DNA from: Anaerophaga thermohalophila DSM 12881
GTDB taxonomy: Bacteria; Bacteroidota; Bacteroidia; Bacteroidales; Marinilabiliaceae
Assembly (NCBI RefSeq): GCF_000191885.1
Contig: NZ_AEWI01000002.1
Coordinates: 1 to 64,000 of the forward strand
Length of the DNA: 64,000 bases
Direction of reading: 5' to 3'
The notes under the pieces were generated by a model. That model made no database searches. It saw only the letters and a list, made by a program, of their open reading frames with translations, and was not told the DNA's origin. Made by a program: the position numbers and the translations under genes. Below, piece after piece: positions 319 through 48,536 of this stretch (the stretch's first letter is position 1; each line of letters starts with the position of its first letter).

Positions 319-2744
319 TCAGAGTGTCATTTTGTTTATTTCCTGAACAGGTGCTAAAGCATGTTGAGTAACTTTCTCCACCACTGTGGTTTCGGGTAAA
401 TAAAAGTTGGCTGTTTGCTCTGTTTGTGTGGAAGATGAACCAATTTTAAGGGTATACTCTCCTTTTTCGGCAATCCATGCACCGGTTTGTTCATCAAATG
501 ATGATATGTCACGTGCATTAATTTCAAACAAAAGGGTTTCACTTTCTCCAGGTAGTAGAAGTTTGGTTTTTCCAAAGTTGATCAATTCAATATTTGGTTT
601 TACCAGATTGCCTTGCGGTGCTGATATATAAACCTGAACCACTTCGCGTCCGGCTACTTCGCCTGTGTTCGTGATTTCAACTGAAGCGGTAAGTTTATCC
701 TTGAACTCATCGGCGGATAATTTAAGGTTATTGTAATCAAAATCGGTATAGGAGAGGCCGTAACCGAATTCATAGGCTGTTTTTTTGTTGAAAGTGTAGT
801 AGTAGCGGTATCCCACAAAAATATCTTCGGTATAGATCACTTCCCATGGGACTCTCTGCATCATCGAGAATCCTGATAAATCATCTGTGTTGCTCGTTTC
901 TCCTTCAATGGCATGGCCCGGGAAGGTTGCTGATGTCGGGGCATCATCGTACGAAACGGGGAAAGTTACGGCCAGCTTACCTGAAGGATTGACTTTTCCG
1001 CTAATCACATCAACCAATGAGTTTCCGGCTTCCTGTCCGGGTTGCCAGGCAAGGAGGACAGCATCCGGGATTTTTGCCCAGGAGGCTGTTTCAACAGGAG
1101 CCCCGATGTTGAGAATGACAATGGCCTTTTTGTCTTTGGCCTGAAATGCTTCAGAAACGTTCCTGATGAGTTGTTTTTCCGTGTCGGTCAGATAAAAATC
1201 GCCCGGTTCTGCTTCCCGGTCTCTGCCTTCACCCGAATTTCGGCCAATGGTAATCAGAGCTGCATCGTTTTTCTCTGCCATTTCGCGGGCCATTGTGGCA
1301 GATACTTCCATTTCAGCAACTGGTTCCCTGCCACCCATCAATGCTGTCAGCCAGTTTTTTGGCGGGCCGGCTTTGGTACGCATCTCTTTGATATAATGAT
1401 TATAAATATCTGAAAGTTCATCGTTGGCTTTAAAGCCGCCATTTTCCAATCCTTCGATAAGTGAAACGATGTAGGCCTCATTAACATCGCCACTACCTGT
1501 TCCGCCCGAAATAAACTCGTAAGATGAATTGCCGAAAACGGCAACTGTTTTAACTTTTTCTGCTGAAATGGGTAGTGCCTGATTGCGGTTTTCAAGCAAT
1601 ACCATCCCATCAGCTGCGGCCCGGCGGGTTATCCGGGCATGGGCCTTCAAATCCGGATTGTTGGAATGTTGATACGCTTTGTATTTCGGGGTTTTCAACA
1701 TGATACTGAGAATACGTTTAATATTCCGGTCAAGAATTTTTTCATCCAGCTTACCTTCTTCAACGGCTGCAATAATCTTCTCAATCTGGTCGGGCAGCCC
1801 CGGCATGATCAGATCATTGCCTGCCTTCATTTGTGCCACGAGGTCATCTCCGGCTCCCCAGTCGGTTACGACATATCCTTCAAATCCCCAGTCGTCACGA
1901 AGAATCTTAGTCAATAAATCATGACTTTCGGAAGCGTATTGTTCGTTGATTTTATTGTAGGCCGACATAACAGTCCATGGCTGCGACTCTTTGACGGCAA
2001 TTTCAAAGCCACGCAGGTAAATTTCCCTCAAAGCGCGTTCACTAACAATGGTATTGACGGAGAGACGATTAGTCTCCTGATTGTTGGCAGCATAATGTTT
2101 GATGGAAGTTCCCACACCATTGGACTGGACACCCTTGACCATCGCTGCAGCCATCTTTCCACTTATCAGGGGGTCTTCCGAATAATATTCAAAGTTTCTT
2201 CCGCAAAGCGGGTCCCGTTGAATATTCAGGGCAGGTGCCAAAAGGACATCGCCACCATATTCCAGGACTTCATTGCCCATGGCTTTTCCGACTTCTTCTA
2301 CGAGGTCTGTGTCCCACGAAGATGCCAGAACCGTGGCAATAGGGAAGGCCGTGCAATAAAAAGTGCTGTCCGTTCCTTCCCTTTCGGGAGCGATACGGAG
2401 TCCGGCGGGGCCGTCGGCCAGCACCTGCGAAGTAATTCCCAGTTCCGGGAATTCGGCAGTAAATCCGGCCGCTCCGGGTAAATATTTACGGATGCGGCGA
2501 ACCATTTTTGCATAAGCTGTATCGCCGTAATTTTTTAGAGGATCTTCGAAAGGTGCTTCAATTGTGTCGGGAAGATCGAAAACCATACCTGTTCCGATCA
2601 CCAGCTGTGCTTTCTGCTCCAGGGTCATTGAGGAGATGATGTCCTGTACTTTTTTCACGTTGTCTTGCTTTTTTTTGTTCGCGTACACTGTACAATAACT
2701 ATTGCAAGTACAAAGAAAAGGATAATTTTTATTGTAGGTTTCAT
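319..2744 (-). CDS. Glycoside hydrolase family 3 beta-glucosidase-like exported protein, with a one-base frameshift near its N terminus
   Basis: The body (about 770 residues) has the GH3 layout. A TIM-barrel domain carries KHYAANN and the catalytic Asp in VVTDWGAG, an alpha/beta sandwich follows, and the end is a fibronectin-III-like domain (NTGEVAGREVVQVYI). Such enzymes release terminal glucose or xylose from beta-linked saccharides. The frame of the body runs upstream into repeat R1 and gives an implausible N terminus. In another frame, ATG at 2742-2744 starts a good signal peptide (MKPTIKIILFFVLAIVIVQC). That frame joins the body only if the A8 run at 2669-2676 is read as nine A. The start chosen is this ATG, which is the last codon of R1. 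The repaired protein has 808 residues and may be a periplasmic or lipid-anchored enzyme; Gln at -1 of the Cys is non-standard for a lipobox. Confidence 0.85.
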
Positions 2745-2835
2745 CCGTATAAAATTTATTTTTAAGGTCGGATGGAACTCGCATGCAAGAACTTATACAT
2801 ATTCTTTTGTGGCAAACCTTGCCATGCTCGTTTCC
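2741..2835 (-). repeat. Repeat R1, copy a
   Basis: About 95 bp of the R1 family, here in sense with the GH3 gene. On the minus strand it ends ATACGGATGAA, and that ATG is the GH3 start codon. The left-half hairpin has the GGCAA/TTGCC version of the stem. The right half has ATCCG paired with CGGAT. Confidence 0.85.
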
Positions 2836-8926: not shown

Positions 8927-9065
8927 GGTCTAAAAAACATCTTTGTTGCCAAACTCGTTGTTGTTTTAAATTTTTGCATCCTCATTAACAACAAGTTAAC
9001 TGCGGTACAGAAAATTCAAATGCCTTGATTTTGACAAAAATATGCTTTTTTATATTGCACTCAAT
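8927..9065 (+). repeat. Repeat R2, copy 1
   Basis: 139 bp beginning GGTCTAAAAAACATCTTTGT and ending near ATTGCACTCAAT. It is nearly the same as the copies at 10.39 and 46.6 kb. It fills most of the hisIE-hisF gap; nothing else is visible there apart from the hisIE -7 box. Confidence 0.8.
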
Positions 9066-10390: not shown

Positions 10391-10535
10391 AGACCGGTCT
10401 AAAAAGCATCTTTGTTGCCAAACTTGTTGTTGTTTTAAATTTCTACATCCTCATTAACAACAAGTTAGCTCTGGCACAAAAAATTTAAAACGCCTTGATT
10501 TTGACAAAAATATGCTTTTTATACTGCACTCAATA
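10391..10535 (+). repeat. Repeat R2, copy 2
   Basis: About 145 bp beginning AGACCGGTCTAAAAAGCATC and ending TTTTTATACTGCACTCAATA. Same orientation as copy 1, so the two are direct repeats about 1.46 kb apart that bracket hisF and the four-helix-bundle gene. Confidence 0.8.
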
Positions 10536-10678: not shown

Positions 10679-10873
10679 ATGAAACGAGCATGACAAAGTT
10701 TGTCACAAAAGAACAGGTATATAAGCAATCATTCGAGTTCCATTCGACCAATAACTTCGACCAATTTTATACTGATGAAACGAGCATGACAAGCTTTTAC
10801 ACAATAAGAGTATGTATAAGTTCTTGCATGTGAGTTCCATCCGACCTTAATAAATAAATTATATACGGATGAA
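10679..10873 (+). repeat. Repeat R1, copies b1 and b2 in tandem
   Basis: Copy b1 (10679-10774) and copy b2 (10775-10873) abut head to tail. The ATGAA end of the first is the ATGAA start of the second, which shows the unit boundaries. Both are antisense to the his genes. b1 ends ATACTGATGAA and b2 ends ATACGGATGAA. The remaining bases up to hisA (10874-10989) show no gene. Confidence 0.85.
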
Positions 10874-11760: not shown

Positions 11761-12360
11761 CTATATCATCAGGAAATTTCTTAATATTTTCTCCCCGACT
11801 TTTCCGCTTTTTTCGGGGTGGAACTGGGTAGCGAAGAAATTGTCTTTTTGCAGTGCTGCGCTAAAGGGGTGGATGTAATTGCTTTCAGCTGCTGTGTCGT
11901 GGCCGGTTGGAACATAATAGCTGTGAACAAAATAGACAAACTGATTTTCCAGTGTGGAATCAAACAGAGGCGATTTTACACGGGCGATGTTATTCCACCC
12001 CATGTGCGGAATTTTATACTTTCTGTCAGCTTCTTCCTGCAGGGTGAATTTTCTGACCGGTTCATCAAAAATTCCGAGACATTCGGTATTTCCTTCTTCA
12101 GAAAAGCTGCACATAAGCTGCATTCCAAGGCAAATACCCAGAACCGGCTGTTTTAGTGACGGGATGATCTTATCCAGTCCTTCCTTTTTGAGAAATGCCA
12201 TGGTTGTGCCGGCCTCGCCGACACCGGGGAAAATTACTTTGTCTGCTTTACGGATCGCCTCAGGGTCGCTGGTTATCTCGGGTTTATATCCAAGGCGTTC
12301 AAGAGCAAAGCTGACAGATCTGATGTTACCGGCATTGTATTTGATAATAGCGATACTCAT
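11761..12360 (-). CDS. hisH: Imidazole glycerol phosphate synthase glutaminase subunit HisH
   Basis: 199 residues, class I glutamine amidotransferase: oxyanion and nucleophile site GICLGMQ (Cys77) and the His-Glu pair in QFHPEKSG. It supplies ammonia to HisF. It is the first visible gene of this his cluster; hisG, hisD, hisC and hisB are not in the window. The start ATG (12358-12360) is the right end of repeat R1-c (ATACGAATG), so the repeat provides the start codon and the 5' leader. Confidence 0.96.
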   Translation of the reverse strand: MSIAIIKYNAGNIRSVSFALERLGYKPEITSDPEAIRKADKVIFPGVGEAGTTMAFLKKEGLDKIIPSLKQPVLGICLGMQLMCSFSEEGNTECLGIFDEPVRKFTLQEEADRKYKIPHMGWNNIARVKSPLFDSTLENQFVYFVHSYYVPTGHDTAAESNYIHPFSAALQKDNFFATQFHPEKSGKVGEKILRNFLMI

Positions 12361-12456
12361 TCGTATAAAATTAGTTTAAGTTATTGGTCGAATGGAACTC
12401 GCATGATTGAGTTTATACATGTTTTTTTGTGACAACTTTTGTCATGCTCGTTTCAT
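12358..12456 (-). repeat. Repeat R1, copy c
   Basis: 99 bp in sense with hisH; its last ATG is the hisH start. It carries the third stem variant, ATTCG paired with CGAAT. The left hairpin is TGACAA/TTGTCA. Confidence 0.85.
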
Positions 12457-23953: not shown

Positions 23954-24052
23954 TTCATCCGTATAAAAATTATTTATTAAGGTCGGATGGAACTCGCATG
24001 ATTGAGTTTTATACATGTTCTTTTGTGACAAACCTTGTCATGCTCGTTTCAT
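23954..24052 (-). repeat. Repeat R1, copy g
   Basis: 99 bp, in sense upstream of grpE, flanked by ATGAA on both sides (ATATGAAACGAGC on the left, ACGGATGAAGTTG on the right). CCG/CGG right stem, TGACAA/TTGTCA left stem. This is the cleanest full-length copy. Confidence 0.85.
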
Positions 24053-35737: not shown

Positions 35738-35836
35738 TTCATCCGTATAAAATTTATTTATTAAGGTCGGATGAAACTCGCATGATTGAGATTTATGCAT
35801 GTCCTTTTGTGACAAACCTTGTCATGCTCGTTTCAT
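35738..35836 (-). repeat. Repeat R1, copy h
   Basis: Full copy, CCG/CGG right stem, TGACAA/TTGTCA left stem. It ends 44 bases before the proline dehydrogenase start, with the left end facing that gene (antisense to it). Confidence 0.85.
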
Positions 35837-37134: not shown

Positions 37135-37252
37135 CGAAACGAGACTGGCATAGTTTGCGACAATAAGAATATGTATAAGTCCTTGCATGCGAGTTCCATC
37201 CGACCTTAATGAATAAATTATATACGGATGAAACGAGCATGACAAAGATTGT
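37135..37252 (+). repeat. Repeat R1, copy i and a fused left-end fragment
   Basis: Copy i (37135-37230, CCG/CGG stem) ends ATACGGATG, and that ATG starts a truncated second unit ATGAAACGAGCATGACAAAG (37228-37252). The fragment runs straight into TAATAGATTTTTAGATTTAA (R3-like). The same fused pattern occurs at 16.6 and 48.2 kb. Confidence 0.8.
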
Positions 37253-37289
37253 AATAGATTTTTAGATTTAAGATGGTAAGATGTAAGAC

Positions 37290-37389
37290 AAAACGGGTCT
37301 GACAAGGCATACCACAACAAGAATATGTATAAAGCCTTGCATTCAAGTTCCATCAGACCAATGACTTAGACTTATTTTATACTGATTAA
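37290..37389 (+). repeat. Repeat R1, copy j
   Basis: Diverged left end (ACGGGTCTGACAAGGC), right half with the CAG/CTG stem (ATCAG paired with CTGAT). Confidence 0.75.
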
Positions 37390-42489: not shown

Positions 42490-43494
42490 TTAATCCTTTA
42501 ATTTGTCATCGGGCAGGTTTTTAACTTTGGTTTTGCGGATGAGCACCGATGGATTGTTGTTGATTTTTCGGGATGCTTCTTCAAGATTGCGAAGCGTTGA
42601 TTGCAGCAATTCCTGGGTTTCTACAAGTCCCTTAGTGCCCTTGTTGATATCGTCATCTACCTTTATGAGAAGTTCTTTGGTTTGTGCGACCACTCCTGCC
42701 AAATCGTCAATTAATTGCGTAATATTTGTTTCTTTCAGTTTTTGTGATATTTCCCGGGCATTTCCTATAATGTCATGAATAGAATCGCTTTGAACCAGCT
42801 GGTCTATCCGGGTCATTGTTTCTTCCAGTGTGCTGCTTGTTTCAAGAATTGAGGCACTGATTTTATTGGCATTTTTTATAGTAGAGCCAATATCCTTCTT
42901 GTTTTGGCCGACGATGGTATCAAGTCGTAAAATGGCACGATCGGCATCGTCTGCCATCTTGCTGAATTTCACAAGGGTGGTAGTGATTTTTGCCAGAGTA
43001 TCGGGATGAGTGAACATCTGCAGGTTGTTGAGTACTTTTTCTGCCTTTTCAGCAATTATTTCTGCCTTTCCCGTTATTTCTGATGTCAAAGAAGAACCCG
43101 GTTGTATATATGAACCTGGTTTCAGAAGATTGGACTTATTGGTTCCACCACGTATTTCTATGGCTTTCATGCCGGTAATCCCGAGCGAAACAATATCCGC
43201 TTTTGCGTCTTCTTTAATGGGGGTGCCCTGTTTTAGCGAGAGTTCTGCAATAATACTGGTGATATCCTGTGGGTTAATACGAATGTCCGAAATGGTTCCT
43301 ACGTTGATGCCGAGATATTTTACGGGGCTTCCAATTTCCATTCCGCTTACCGAGACATCGTGAAAATTCACATAATAGGTGTCGGATTTTTCGAACAACT
43401 CCCTGGCTGTAAAATATACGACCAGAAACAAAAGCAGGGCGGAACTGACTATGATAAAAATCCCCAGTCTTATTTTTTTTGATCGGTTGTTCAT
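42490..43494 (-). CDS. MCE/MlaD-family lipid transport protein
   Basis: 334 residues. One N-terminal membrane helix (RLGIFIIVSSALLLFLVVYF), a single MCE domain about 35-115 (YYVNFHDVSVSGMEIGSPVK, YLGINVGTISDIRINPQDIT), and a long helical tail 150-310 likely to oligomerise into a channel. First gene of the Mla-type operon. Its ATG (43492-43494) is the right end of repeat R1-k, so the repeat forms its entire proximal 5' leader. Confidence 0.92.
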   Translation of the reverse strand: MNNRSKKIRLGIFIIVSSALLLFLVVYFTARELFEKSDTYYVNFHDVSVSGMEIGSPVKYLGINVGTISDIRINPQDITSIIAELSLKQGTPIKEDAKADIVSLGITGMKAIEIRGGTNKSNLLKPGSYIQPGSSLTSEITGKAEIIAEKAEKVLNNLQMFTHPDTLAKITTTLVKFSKMADDADRAILRLDTIVGQNKKDIGSTIKNANKISASILETSSTLEETMTRIDQLVQSDSIHDIIGNAREISQKLKETNITQLIDDLAGVVAQTKELLIKVDDDINKGTKGLVETQELLQSTLRNLEEASRKINNNPSVLIRKTKVKNLPDDKLKD

Positions 43495-43586
43495 CCGTAT
43501 GAAATTTATTTATTAAGGTCGGATGGAACTCGCATGATTGAGTTATACATATTCTTTTGAGACAACCCTTGCCATGCTCGTTTCAT
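43491..43586 (-). repeat. Repeat R1, copy k
   Basis: Full copy in sense with the Mla operon. On the minus strand it begins ATGAAACGAGCATGG and ends ATACGGATG, where ATG is the mlaD-type start. The flanks read ATGAA on the left and ATGAA on the right. Confidence 0.88.
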
Positions 43587-43620
43587 TGGTTAATGCTATT
43601 TTATCAAAGATAATTGAATT

Positions 43621-44110: not shown

Positions 44111-44212
44111 ATGAAACGAGCATGGCAAAGTTTTCCACAAAAGAACATGTATAAAACGCTTACATGCGAGTTCCATCAGACCAATAACTTAGACTAATTT
44201 TATACTGATGAA
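44111..44212 (+). repeat. Repeat R1, copy l
   Basis: Full copy antisense to EF-G2, flanked by ATGAA on both sides. It carries the CAG/CTG right stem (ATCAG with CTGAT), the compensatory alternative to CCG/CGG. Confidence 0.85.
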
Positions 44213-46605: not shown

Positions 46606-47008
46606 GAGCCCGGCCTGAAAAGCATCTTTATTGTCAAACTCGTTGTTGTTTTAAGTTTTTGCATCCTCAGTAACAATAAGTTAACACCGGTACAAAAATT
46701 AAAACGCCTTGATTTTGACAAAAATATGCTTTTATGCTGTACTTAAATGTGAGTGCAGTATAAAAAGCCTTCAAACTGCTGATTTTTACCATATTTACCC
46801 CTGACCCCTAAAGGGGAACTGCTAAAAATCAGCAGTTTGAAAAAGTCCCCTTTAGGGGATTTAGGGGTCAAAAGACTTTTTATACTGCACTCAAATATTG
46901 AATTTGTCAATTCTATTATGTAAATTGATTTTACTGTTTTGTTTTATACATGAGTGCGGTATAAAAGGCCTTGAGTTTGGCAACAAAGATGCTTTTCAGG
47001 CCGGGCTC
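46606..47008. repeat. Compound repeat: R2 copy, palindromic element and inverted R2 ends
   Basis: Bases 46606-46745 are R2 (GAGCCCGGCCTGAAAAGCAT start). Bases 46751-46891 are a palindromic element ending in GAGTGCAGTATAAAAAG and its exact complement, with AAAATCAGCAGTTTGA inside. Bases 46951-47008 are the two R2 ends fused and inverted. The whole block is flanked by a 37-bp inverted repeat with two mismatches. The gap 46384-47097 contains nothing else that I recognise. Confidence 0.75.
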
Positions 47009-48412: not shown

Positions 48413-48508
48413 GATGAAACGAGCATGACAACGTTTTCCACAACAGAACATGTATAAGTTCTTGCATGCGAGTTCCATCAGACTTTAAAAATAAATTTTA
48501 TACGGATG
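48413..48508 (+). repeat. Repeat R1, copy m
   Basis: Full copy antisense to the phosphopantetheinyl transferase gene. Right stem is ATCAG facing CGGAT, one mismatch, so it looks like a partly decayed intermediate. Confidence 0.82.
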
Positions 48509-48536
48509 ACTATATCAGGTTAAACTCTTTCAAAAA

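Follow-up and report, generated by a model that had tools for sequence, protein, structure and literature searches.

R1 copies and genes of the window

The window, i.e. the whole stretch of 64,000 nt of DNA that was analysed, contains three genes whose 5' ends adjoin a repeat named R1: a gene of the mlaD type, a hisH-like gene, and a GH3 gene. R1 is an asymmetric repeat of about 97 nt; the consensus is TGAAACGAGCATGACAAGGTTTGTCACAAAAGAACATGTATAAAnTCAATCATGCGAGTTCCATCCGACCTTAATAAATAAATTTTATACGGATGAA. At positions 2744, 12360, and 43494 its right end reads ATACGGATG or ATACGAATG. The left end differs from the right end; consequently, R1 has no terminal inverted repeats. We found 12 near-full copies on both strands of the window plus fragments (Table 1), and head-to-tail neighbours may share a single ATGAA, as the pair at 10680-10873 does.

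Table 1. Features of the R1 copies and of the adjoining genes in the window.
Feature	Position	Strand	Remark
R1 copy before mlaD-type gene, including the last five bases ATGAA (43494-43490)	43490..43581	-	profile match, E 5.8e-27
ATGAA to the left of this R1 copy: target, probably also the old start codon	43582..43586	-	in R1-less relatives the same leader runs into their ATG
ATG start codon of mlaD-type gene, from R1	43492..43494	-	orthologues begin at the same residue; in-frame stop 18 nt upstream
mlaD-type gene, 334 aa, PF02470	42490..43494	-	
Left subterminal hairpin of the mlaD R1 copy	43561..43573	-	in 48 copies, helix 1 has three pairs with both partners altered
Internal guide CATGCGAGTTCCATCCG, complementary to both R1 ends	43520..43536	-	right end covarying; left end complementary without covariation
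CGGATG, start codon inside stem, partner CATCCG at 43520-43525	43492..43497	-	96.5% of cells paired; two pairs altered on both sides
TATCTTTG box in displaced mlaD leader	43605..43612	-	same box in G005, G018, G023, G032
R1 copy before hisH-like gene, ends ATGAG	12356..12451	-	left flank ATGAA 12452-12456
hisH-like class-I glutamine amidotransferase, 199 aa	11761..12360	-	
R1 copy before GH3 gene	2740..2830	-	left flank AGGAA 2831-2835
GH3 ORF holding the GH3 domains	319..2784	-	out of frame with R1 ATG at 2744
R1 pair, head to tail, common ATGAA	10680..10873	+	
R1 copy, diverged, terminal ATAAA	14292..14388	-	
R1 copy	23955..24051	-	ORF from terminal ATG 16 aa
R1 copy	35739..35835	-	ORF from terminal ATG 16 aa
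R1 copy, left-end fragment, and diverged R1 copy, all in the same direction	37136..37386	+	
R1 copy pointing at a gene end	44112..44211	+	ORF from terminal ATG 32 aa
R1 copy	48415..48509	+	ORF from terminal ATG 5 aa

The preliminary description had claimed that in all three cases the terminal ATG of R1 is the exact start codon of a recognised protein. This holds for 43494 and 12360, where the ORFs begin with this ATG and an in-frame stop codon 18 nt upstream makes an earlier in-frame start impossible. At 2744 the frame closes after 29 codons, and the start is assigned by orthology only: the ATG aligns with the congener's start of the GH3 lipoprotein signal (MKPTTKIILFF). Past the signal peptide and ahead of the enzyme part, a stretch with an A-run (near 2670-2685) has one base fewer than its counterpart in the congener, which closes the frame; this break may be either a real frameshift or an assembly error. 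The tally of the window is thus two exact start cases plus one by orthology among the 12 near-full copies.

In the congener G001, R1 is present before mlaD and its terminal stem reads CATTCG/CGAATG, compared to CATCCG/CGGATG in the window. G018 apparently possesses a worn R1 copy at this gene; in G005, G023, and G032, R1 is absent and a leader with TATCTTTG runs into the ATG. The TATCTTTG box of the window is similar to the -7 element of Bacteroidota. At the hisH start, the congener has worn R1-family copies; an inspection of this start in more distant relatives by eye did not reveal R1. The congener's GH3 gene has no R1 directly before its start, and an R1-like remnant was seen by eye about 30 nt further upstream.

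For a census, we used a sample of 1,169,416 nt of the window's genome (GC content 41.8%), whose contigs were chosen without regard to R1 loci: C211, C205, C199, and C192 as a whole, C200 minus its last 27 bases, C175 minus its last 1,748 bases, and 84,000 of the 84,715 bases of C210. A profile built on 48 copies gave 185 matches, namely 118 full copies, 45 left ends only, 19 right ends only, and 3 others, which extrapolates to about 435 full copies per genome. Direct searches of the same genome found at least 53 and at least 150 R1 places, respectively. In the sample, tandems with a common ATGAA account for 21 of 163 left ends. Among 138 right ends, 33 are directed towards a gene end.

Insertion next to ATGAA-like pentanucleotides

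The left flanks of 142 non-tandem copies are ATGAA (94), TTGAA (13), ACGAA (11), ATAAA (8), GTGAA (4), and others (12). The right pentanucleotide is ATGAA in 118 of 138 right ends. For 31 full copies the left flank is not ATGAA; in none of them does the right pentanucleotide equal the left one, and in 25 it is ATGAA. Since the right pentanucleotide is independent of the left, the right ATGAA belongs to R1, and the model of a target-site duplication was rejected. The 28 full copies that stand at a gene start (start copies) are preceded by ATGAA (24), ATAAA (2), GTGAA (1), and ATGCA (1).

All 37 start copies of the sample (see below) were compared with 732 kb of the congener G001: 27 genes had no orthologue, five orthologues had R1, and five did not. 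These 10 orthologues begin at the same codon as the R1-led genes, whether R1 is present or absent. The five R1-less starts are ATGAA (three), GTGAA (one), and ATGTA (one); note that two of these five cases are right-end-only copies in the window's genome. The cleanest empty site belongs to C175:100263, where the congener reads TTTTTTTTGAAGGT-ATGAAT; in the window's genome this leader is followed by ATGAA, R1, and ATGAAT. The reverse comparison, which started from 28 start copies of G001, gave 17 genes without orthologue, five orthologues with R1, and six that were scored as lacking it; on visual inspection, three or more of the six retain a worn right end of R1, so absence is overcounted here. 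In one of the orthologues scored as lacking R1, the ATG lies two codons further upstream.

Flanks and empty sites agree with the earlier proposal that R1 enters at ATGAA and regenerates it, except that the target is ATGAA-like and not strictly ATGAA. The further proposal that entry at a start codon spares the protein is borne out by the five R1-less congener orthologues, which begin at the same codon. In our view R1 is a non-autonomous mobile element. Flanks and empty sites show that it sits precisely 3' of an ATGAA-like pentanucleotide that is kept on the left, and that its right terminus is an ATGAA of its own. When R1 enters at a start codon with ATGAA, the upstream DNA stays upstream and R1 becomes an additional leader of about 97 nt; its terminal ATGAA stands in for the first five bases of the gene such that start and frame are preserved, as the five orthologue pairs show. 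Copies landing within genes would be lost, leaving survivors between genes or exactly at starts. That R1 inserts 3' of an ATGAA-like site and supplies the start codon with its own terminal ATGAA we consider highly probable. If the target includes the start codon and the end of the element restores it, insertion could rewire 100 or more gene leaders without cost to the protein.

Excess of R1 ends at start codons

The frequency of R1 at gene starts was determined by means of a frame test. A right end was included if its ATGA was intact, if 330 nt or more followed, and if the next sequence was not another R1; ORFs of at least 100 codons were scored for each frame. Before removal of tandems, 121 right ends of the sample qualified, and 96 remained afterwards. 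Such an ORF follows the R1 ATG in frame 0 in 37 of these 96 cases, in frame +1 in none, and in frame +2 in one; 59 of the 96 open no long ORF. With copies placed at random, chance would give far fewer in frame 0. For the sampled part of the congener, whose stretches were picked from contigs already known to hold R1, the values are 28 of 54 in frame 0, and 0 and 1 in the shifted frames. Among the matches listed in a pattern scan of named loci from Marinilabilia, Thermophagus, Breznakibacter, and Carboxylicivirga (Valhall loci excluded, identical ends counted once), 10 of 29 are in frame 0, and none in either shifted frame. An excess of R1 ends at start codons, which the preliminary description had named as a check, was thus found in three sets, which have some ancestral insertions in common and are not fully independent.

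A home-made gene caller likewise placed 37 right ends in frame with a gene, and 35 of these are common to both lists. As the gene caller puts starts too far downstream for signal peptides, we took the frame test as the main count. Two ORFs of the frame test (106 and 171 aa) have no gene model; conversely, the gene caller added one worn copy with ATAAA and one copy with an 81-aa ORF. Ten R1-led proteins were scanned for Pfam domains: the domain begins at residue 1 in a phosphoglycerate mutase, at residue 3 in a biotin carboxylase, and at residues 4 and 6 in two epimerases. In these proteins the R1 ATG is therefore very probably the true start.

How much of the excess is due to the target itself can be estimated from the ATGAA sites outside gene bodies, of which 20.5% (197 of 962) to 27.3% (243 of 891) are gene starts; the latter is an upper figure, as several candidate starts per gene were counted. 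Most of the effect is thus expected if R1 occurs at starts no more often than these sites do, and to call the insertion at start codons an unusual strategy, as had been done, is too strong. The observed 38.5% (37 of 96) exceeds the expectation with P = 0.011 versus 27.3%, P = 0.0013 versus ATGAA[AT] sites, and P = 1e-8 versus the relaxed motif [ATG]TGAA; however, the requirement of an intact ATGA could by itself enrich for copies that selection has kept as start codons. Given these P-values and the even higher proportion in the congener (28 of 54), we consider it rather unlikely that target choice accounts for the excess alone; regardless of how large the surplus is, insertion at starts does occur. 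We regard target choice in combination with loss from gene bodies as the main cause of the excess, and any extra preference is unproven.

With respect to retention, 5 start copies were shared with the congener, 6 were absent there, and 27 lacked an orthologue; for other copies, these numbers were 9, 41, and 50. Many of the other copies match only repeats and some loci scored as absent hold worn R1 ends; therefore, this tally gives no conclusion.

The old leader and the predicted new one

R1 had been proposed to replace the 5' leader of its genes. Where the old leader is recognisable, it is displaced instead: the mlaD leader of the relatives, including TATCTTTG, lies directly upstream of R1, and at C175:100263 the congener leader TTTTTTTTGAAGGT-ATGAA is unchanged to the left of R1. 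For about 10 start copies, the sequence on the left is, by eye, the end of another R1-family copy; as the left neighbour of many start copies is another repeat, the fate of the leader is unreadable there. In a search of the 120 nt upstream, the promoter box TANNTTTG was found for 2 of 28 start copies, 4 of 57 other copies, and 17 of 130 ATGAA genes without R1 (29 of 130 within 217 nt). Due to this rarity before start copies, the box seen at mlaD is not a general feature, which says nothing on promoters at large.

A second part of the earlier proposal, that the genes come under a new, structured leader, is in line with computed folds and stands as a prediction. Upon folding of positions -110 to +50, the median probability that the ATG is unpaired was 0.08 for 28 R1-led genes and 0.48 for 100 of the 130 R1-less ATGAA genes (P = 1.2e-6), i.e. 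the start codon is predicted to be buried. The region from -12 to +6 hardly differs (0.49 versus 0.52, P = 0.07). The base at position -3 is a C in 34 of 35 R1-led genes outside the window. For Flavobacterium johnsoniae, PMC6847099 reports that an A at -3 favours initiation and that secondary structure tunes it. Both the C at -3 and the predicted burial of the ATG would point to weaker initiation. A complete terminal stem occurs in 18 of 26 start copies and in 39 of 50 others; this similarity gives no sign that selection at starts breaks or keeps the stem.

These folds, and a conserved structure that includes the start codon, are what one would expect if R1 were a conserved cis-regulatory RNA leader, similar to a riboswitch, that has spread with the genes it controls and is not mobile. 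We regard this explanation as very improbable: 59 of 96 right ends are not followed by a long ORF, 33 of 138 face a gene end, copies occur as head-to-tail tandems, the R1 loci have no Rfam match at the gathering score, and the presence of R1 varies between congeners at orthologous genes, so that the empty sites already contradict it. R1 might also be a self-dispersing translational switch whose guide CATGCGAGTTYCATYCG has two alternative partners, the displaced ATGAA plus left end and, at the right end, the new start codon. The common leader would conceal the AUG, which would be released by the switch to the other pairing or by translation of a short upstream ORF from the old start. We give this idea a small probability; if true, it would affect about 140 genes per genome (37 in 1.17 Mb, extrapolated to 4.3 Mb), including those for biotin carboxylase and DAHP synthase.

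According to the same paper (PMC6847099), Bacteroidota lack Shine-Dalgarno sequences; hence a shift of the leader by 97 nt need not remove a ribosome site. Tolerance of insertions at starts is perhaps helped by this, because nothing essential beside the AUG would be pushed away, as one may conclude from PMC6847099. Orthologues of sister species with and without the same 97-nt leader are a natural experiment on translation start without Shine-Dalgarno sequences in this phylum.

Structure of R1 and proposed mode of transposition

Covariation was found for the left hairpin and for the terminal stem CATCCG/CGGATG: 25 double-change cells were counted, compared to a mean of 10 after shuffling, and none of 500 shuffles was as high; as the R1 copies are related, these cells are not independent events. 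Sliding the partner strand destroyed the signal. The guide is complementary to the left end too if a tandem G.A mismatch and, for the majority of copies, an A.C mismatch are allowed, and shows no covariation with it. The columns of the left end hardly vary; therefore, pairing of guide and left end is neither supported nor refuted. A separate right hairpin appeared in some single folds only.

The asymmetric ends, the lack of a target duplication, and the covariation of CGGATG with the CATCCG guide argue for a single-stranded, guided mechanism. Transposition may thus proceed via single strands and be guided by base pairs as in IS200/IS605 elements, driven by a putative transposing enzyme; we hold mobility of this kind for quite possible, though only tentatively. 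IS608 keeps a pentanucleotide/tetranucleotide on its left, has hairpins, and uses a guide that pairs with the right cleavage site (PMC5934647). R1 resembles IS200/IS605 elements such as IS608 and ISDra2 in inserting 3' of a specific tetra- or pentanucleotide, which it leaves on its left side, in its subterminal hairpin, in the pairing of a guide with the right cleavage site, and in having neither inverted repeats nor a target duplication. In contrast to these elements, R1 has no linked TnpA and no visible strand bias, its stem of guide and right terminus has six canonical pairs, a single guide fits both ends, and the consensus of the left and the right pentanucleotide is identical.

Coupling to the lagging strand would predict an orientation bias. 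With 86 of 185 matches on the strand of positive GC skew, which for draft contigs is a weak test, no such bias was detected, and this counts against the IS200/IS605 mechanism. R1 seems to work like an IS200/IS605-type element; it is not filed as a member of this family, because the enzyme is missing and the strand bias is lacking.

In the window's genome no R1-linked transposase was found. It has two Y1_Tnp genes, one in L031 near R1 pieces and one inside a large ORF. The former (1405-1857, minus strand) is of the type of RAYT (REP-associated tyrosine transposase), and three R1 pieces lie in the 600 nt or so upstream of it, which would fit an R1 that is a REP-like element moved by this resident enzyme. 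However, the gene is flanked by its own CGCCCCTTTGGGGC palindromes, R1 ends do not enclose any of the 30 loci inspected among 50 Y1_Tnp matches of relatives (a weak R1 match stands near one of them), and R1 is 97 nt long and asymmetric, which makes the proposal improbable. Two R1-bearing genomes, one of them 76% complete, gave no Y1_Tnp match. The second Y1_Tnp domain of the window's genome is part of a large ORF (L032, 808-3252, minus strand), which by eye is similar to restriction-modification genes and has repeated SSLSEN(PPT) motifs; a long frame similar to it occurs in the congener (L282).

No coding element with R1 ends was recognised in the sampled DNA. When left ends were paired with right ends over distances of at most 4 kb, the window's genome gave mostly variants of 213-384 nt with sizes near 215 and 345; most of these contain an inner AGAATGACA palindrome, which applies to 21 of the 45 left-end-only matches. 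Elements of about 215/345 nt in which R1 ends surround a AGAATGACA..TGTCATTCTGA palindrome were seen at L014, L021, L030, and 21 places of the sample; a few 67-nt forms end with AGATTTAAGATGAA. A pair of R1 ends 2.5 kb apart in the congener was considered as an autonomous partner and is taken for chance, its left match being weak (E 0.047). The preferred reading of R1 as a guided single-stranded element points to a mobilising enzyme with a six-base-pair guide.

Comparison with other small elements

REP/REPIN sequences, which are associated with RAYT (TnpA-REP), share with R1 hundreds of short, mostly intergenic copies, hairpins, and a presumed trans-acting Y1 enzyme; R1 differs from what PMC8266576 describes in being 97 nt long and directional, in lacking a GTAG tag, and in ending with ATGAA. 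An REP is a palindrome of 20-40 nt tagged GTAG or CGTC, and by eye the 97-nt consensus of R1 has neither tag. MITEs are similar to R1 in being small, non-coding, and present in many copies; unlike them, R1 has neither terminal inverted repeats nor a target duplication.

HEARO elements use ATGAA or GTGAA as insertion site. This common pentanucleotide raises the question whether R1 is a short relative of HEARO/IscB elements and their omega-RNA, but R1 has about half the length of the HEARO model (211 positions) and no match to it, and its loci remain without an Rfam match at the gathering score also in this respect. No HEARO was found above threshold in the window's genome, and none at E ≤ 0.01 in 26 relatives, which is a weak negative as no control genome gave a signal in the search of the relatives; for the same reason, the absence of an RRXRR domain from the window's genome is a weak negative. 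A kinship with HEARO/IscB elements is therefore very improbable. A permissive Rfam search with one array of R1 copies yielded a chance microRNA match only. A literature search, which covered titles and starts of abstracts of licensed papers, found neither R1 nor an element that restores a start codon.

Distribution and neighbouring repeats

By strict filters, R1 matches at E ≤ 0.001 occur in at least 26 of 61 genomes (the window's own included), that is in at least 23 of 37 of the same family and in at least 3 of 24 others of the order. Searches of plasmids with one tandem array and of viral contigs with one right-half pattern gave no R1 match.

The window contains a second repeat family of about 94 nt, D3 (GGTCTAAAAA..TTAACAACAAGTTAAC), at 8927-9020, 10396-10489, and 46612-46705. 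Elsewhere in the genome, R1 lies within D3 repeats at TTTTTGAA|TCCTC, where the repeats of the congener read TTTTGCATCCTC. In L006 a gene for a small protein (860-1222), whose product we take to be of the four-helix-bundle type, has GAGTAGGC tandem repeats behind it and then an R1-carrying repeated block, which is also found in L002, L026, and L027. A further block, TAACAATTCTAACAGCCGTAACAATTTATTAA.TGTAAG, ends with ATGAA/ATAAA directly before R1 at C175:41462, C211:19176, C205:49100, and C211:58661. Several kinds of repeat may thus stack on one start codon.
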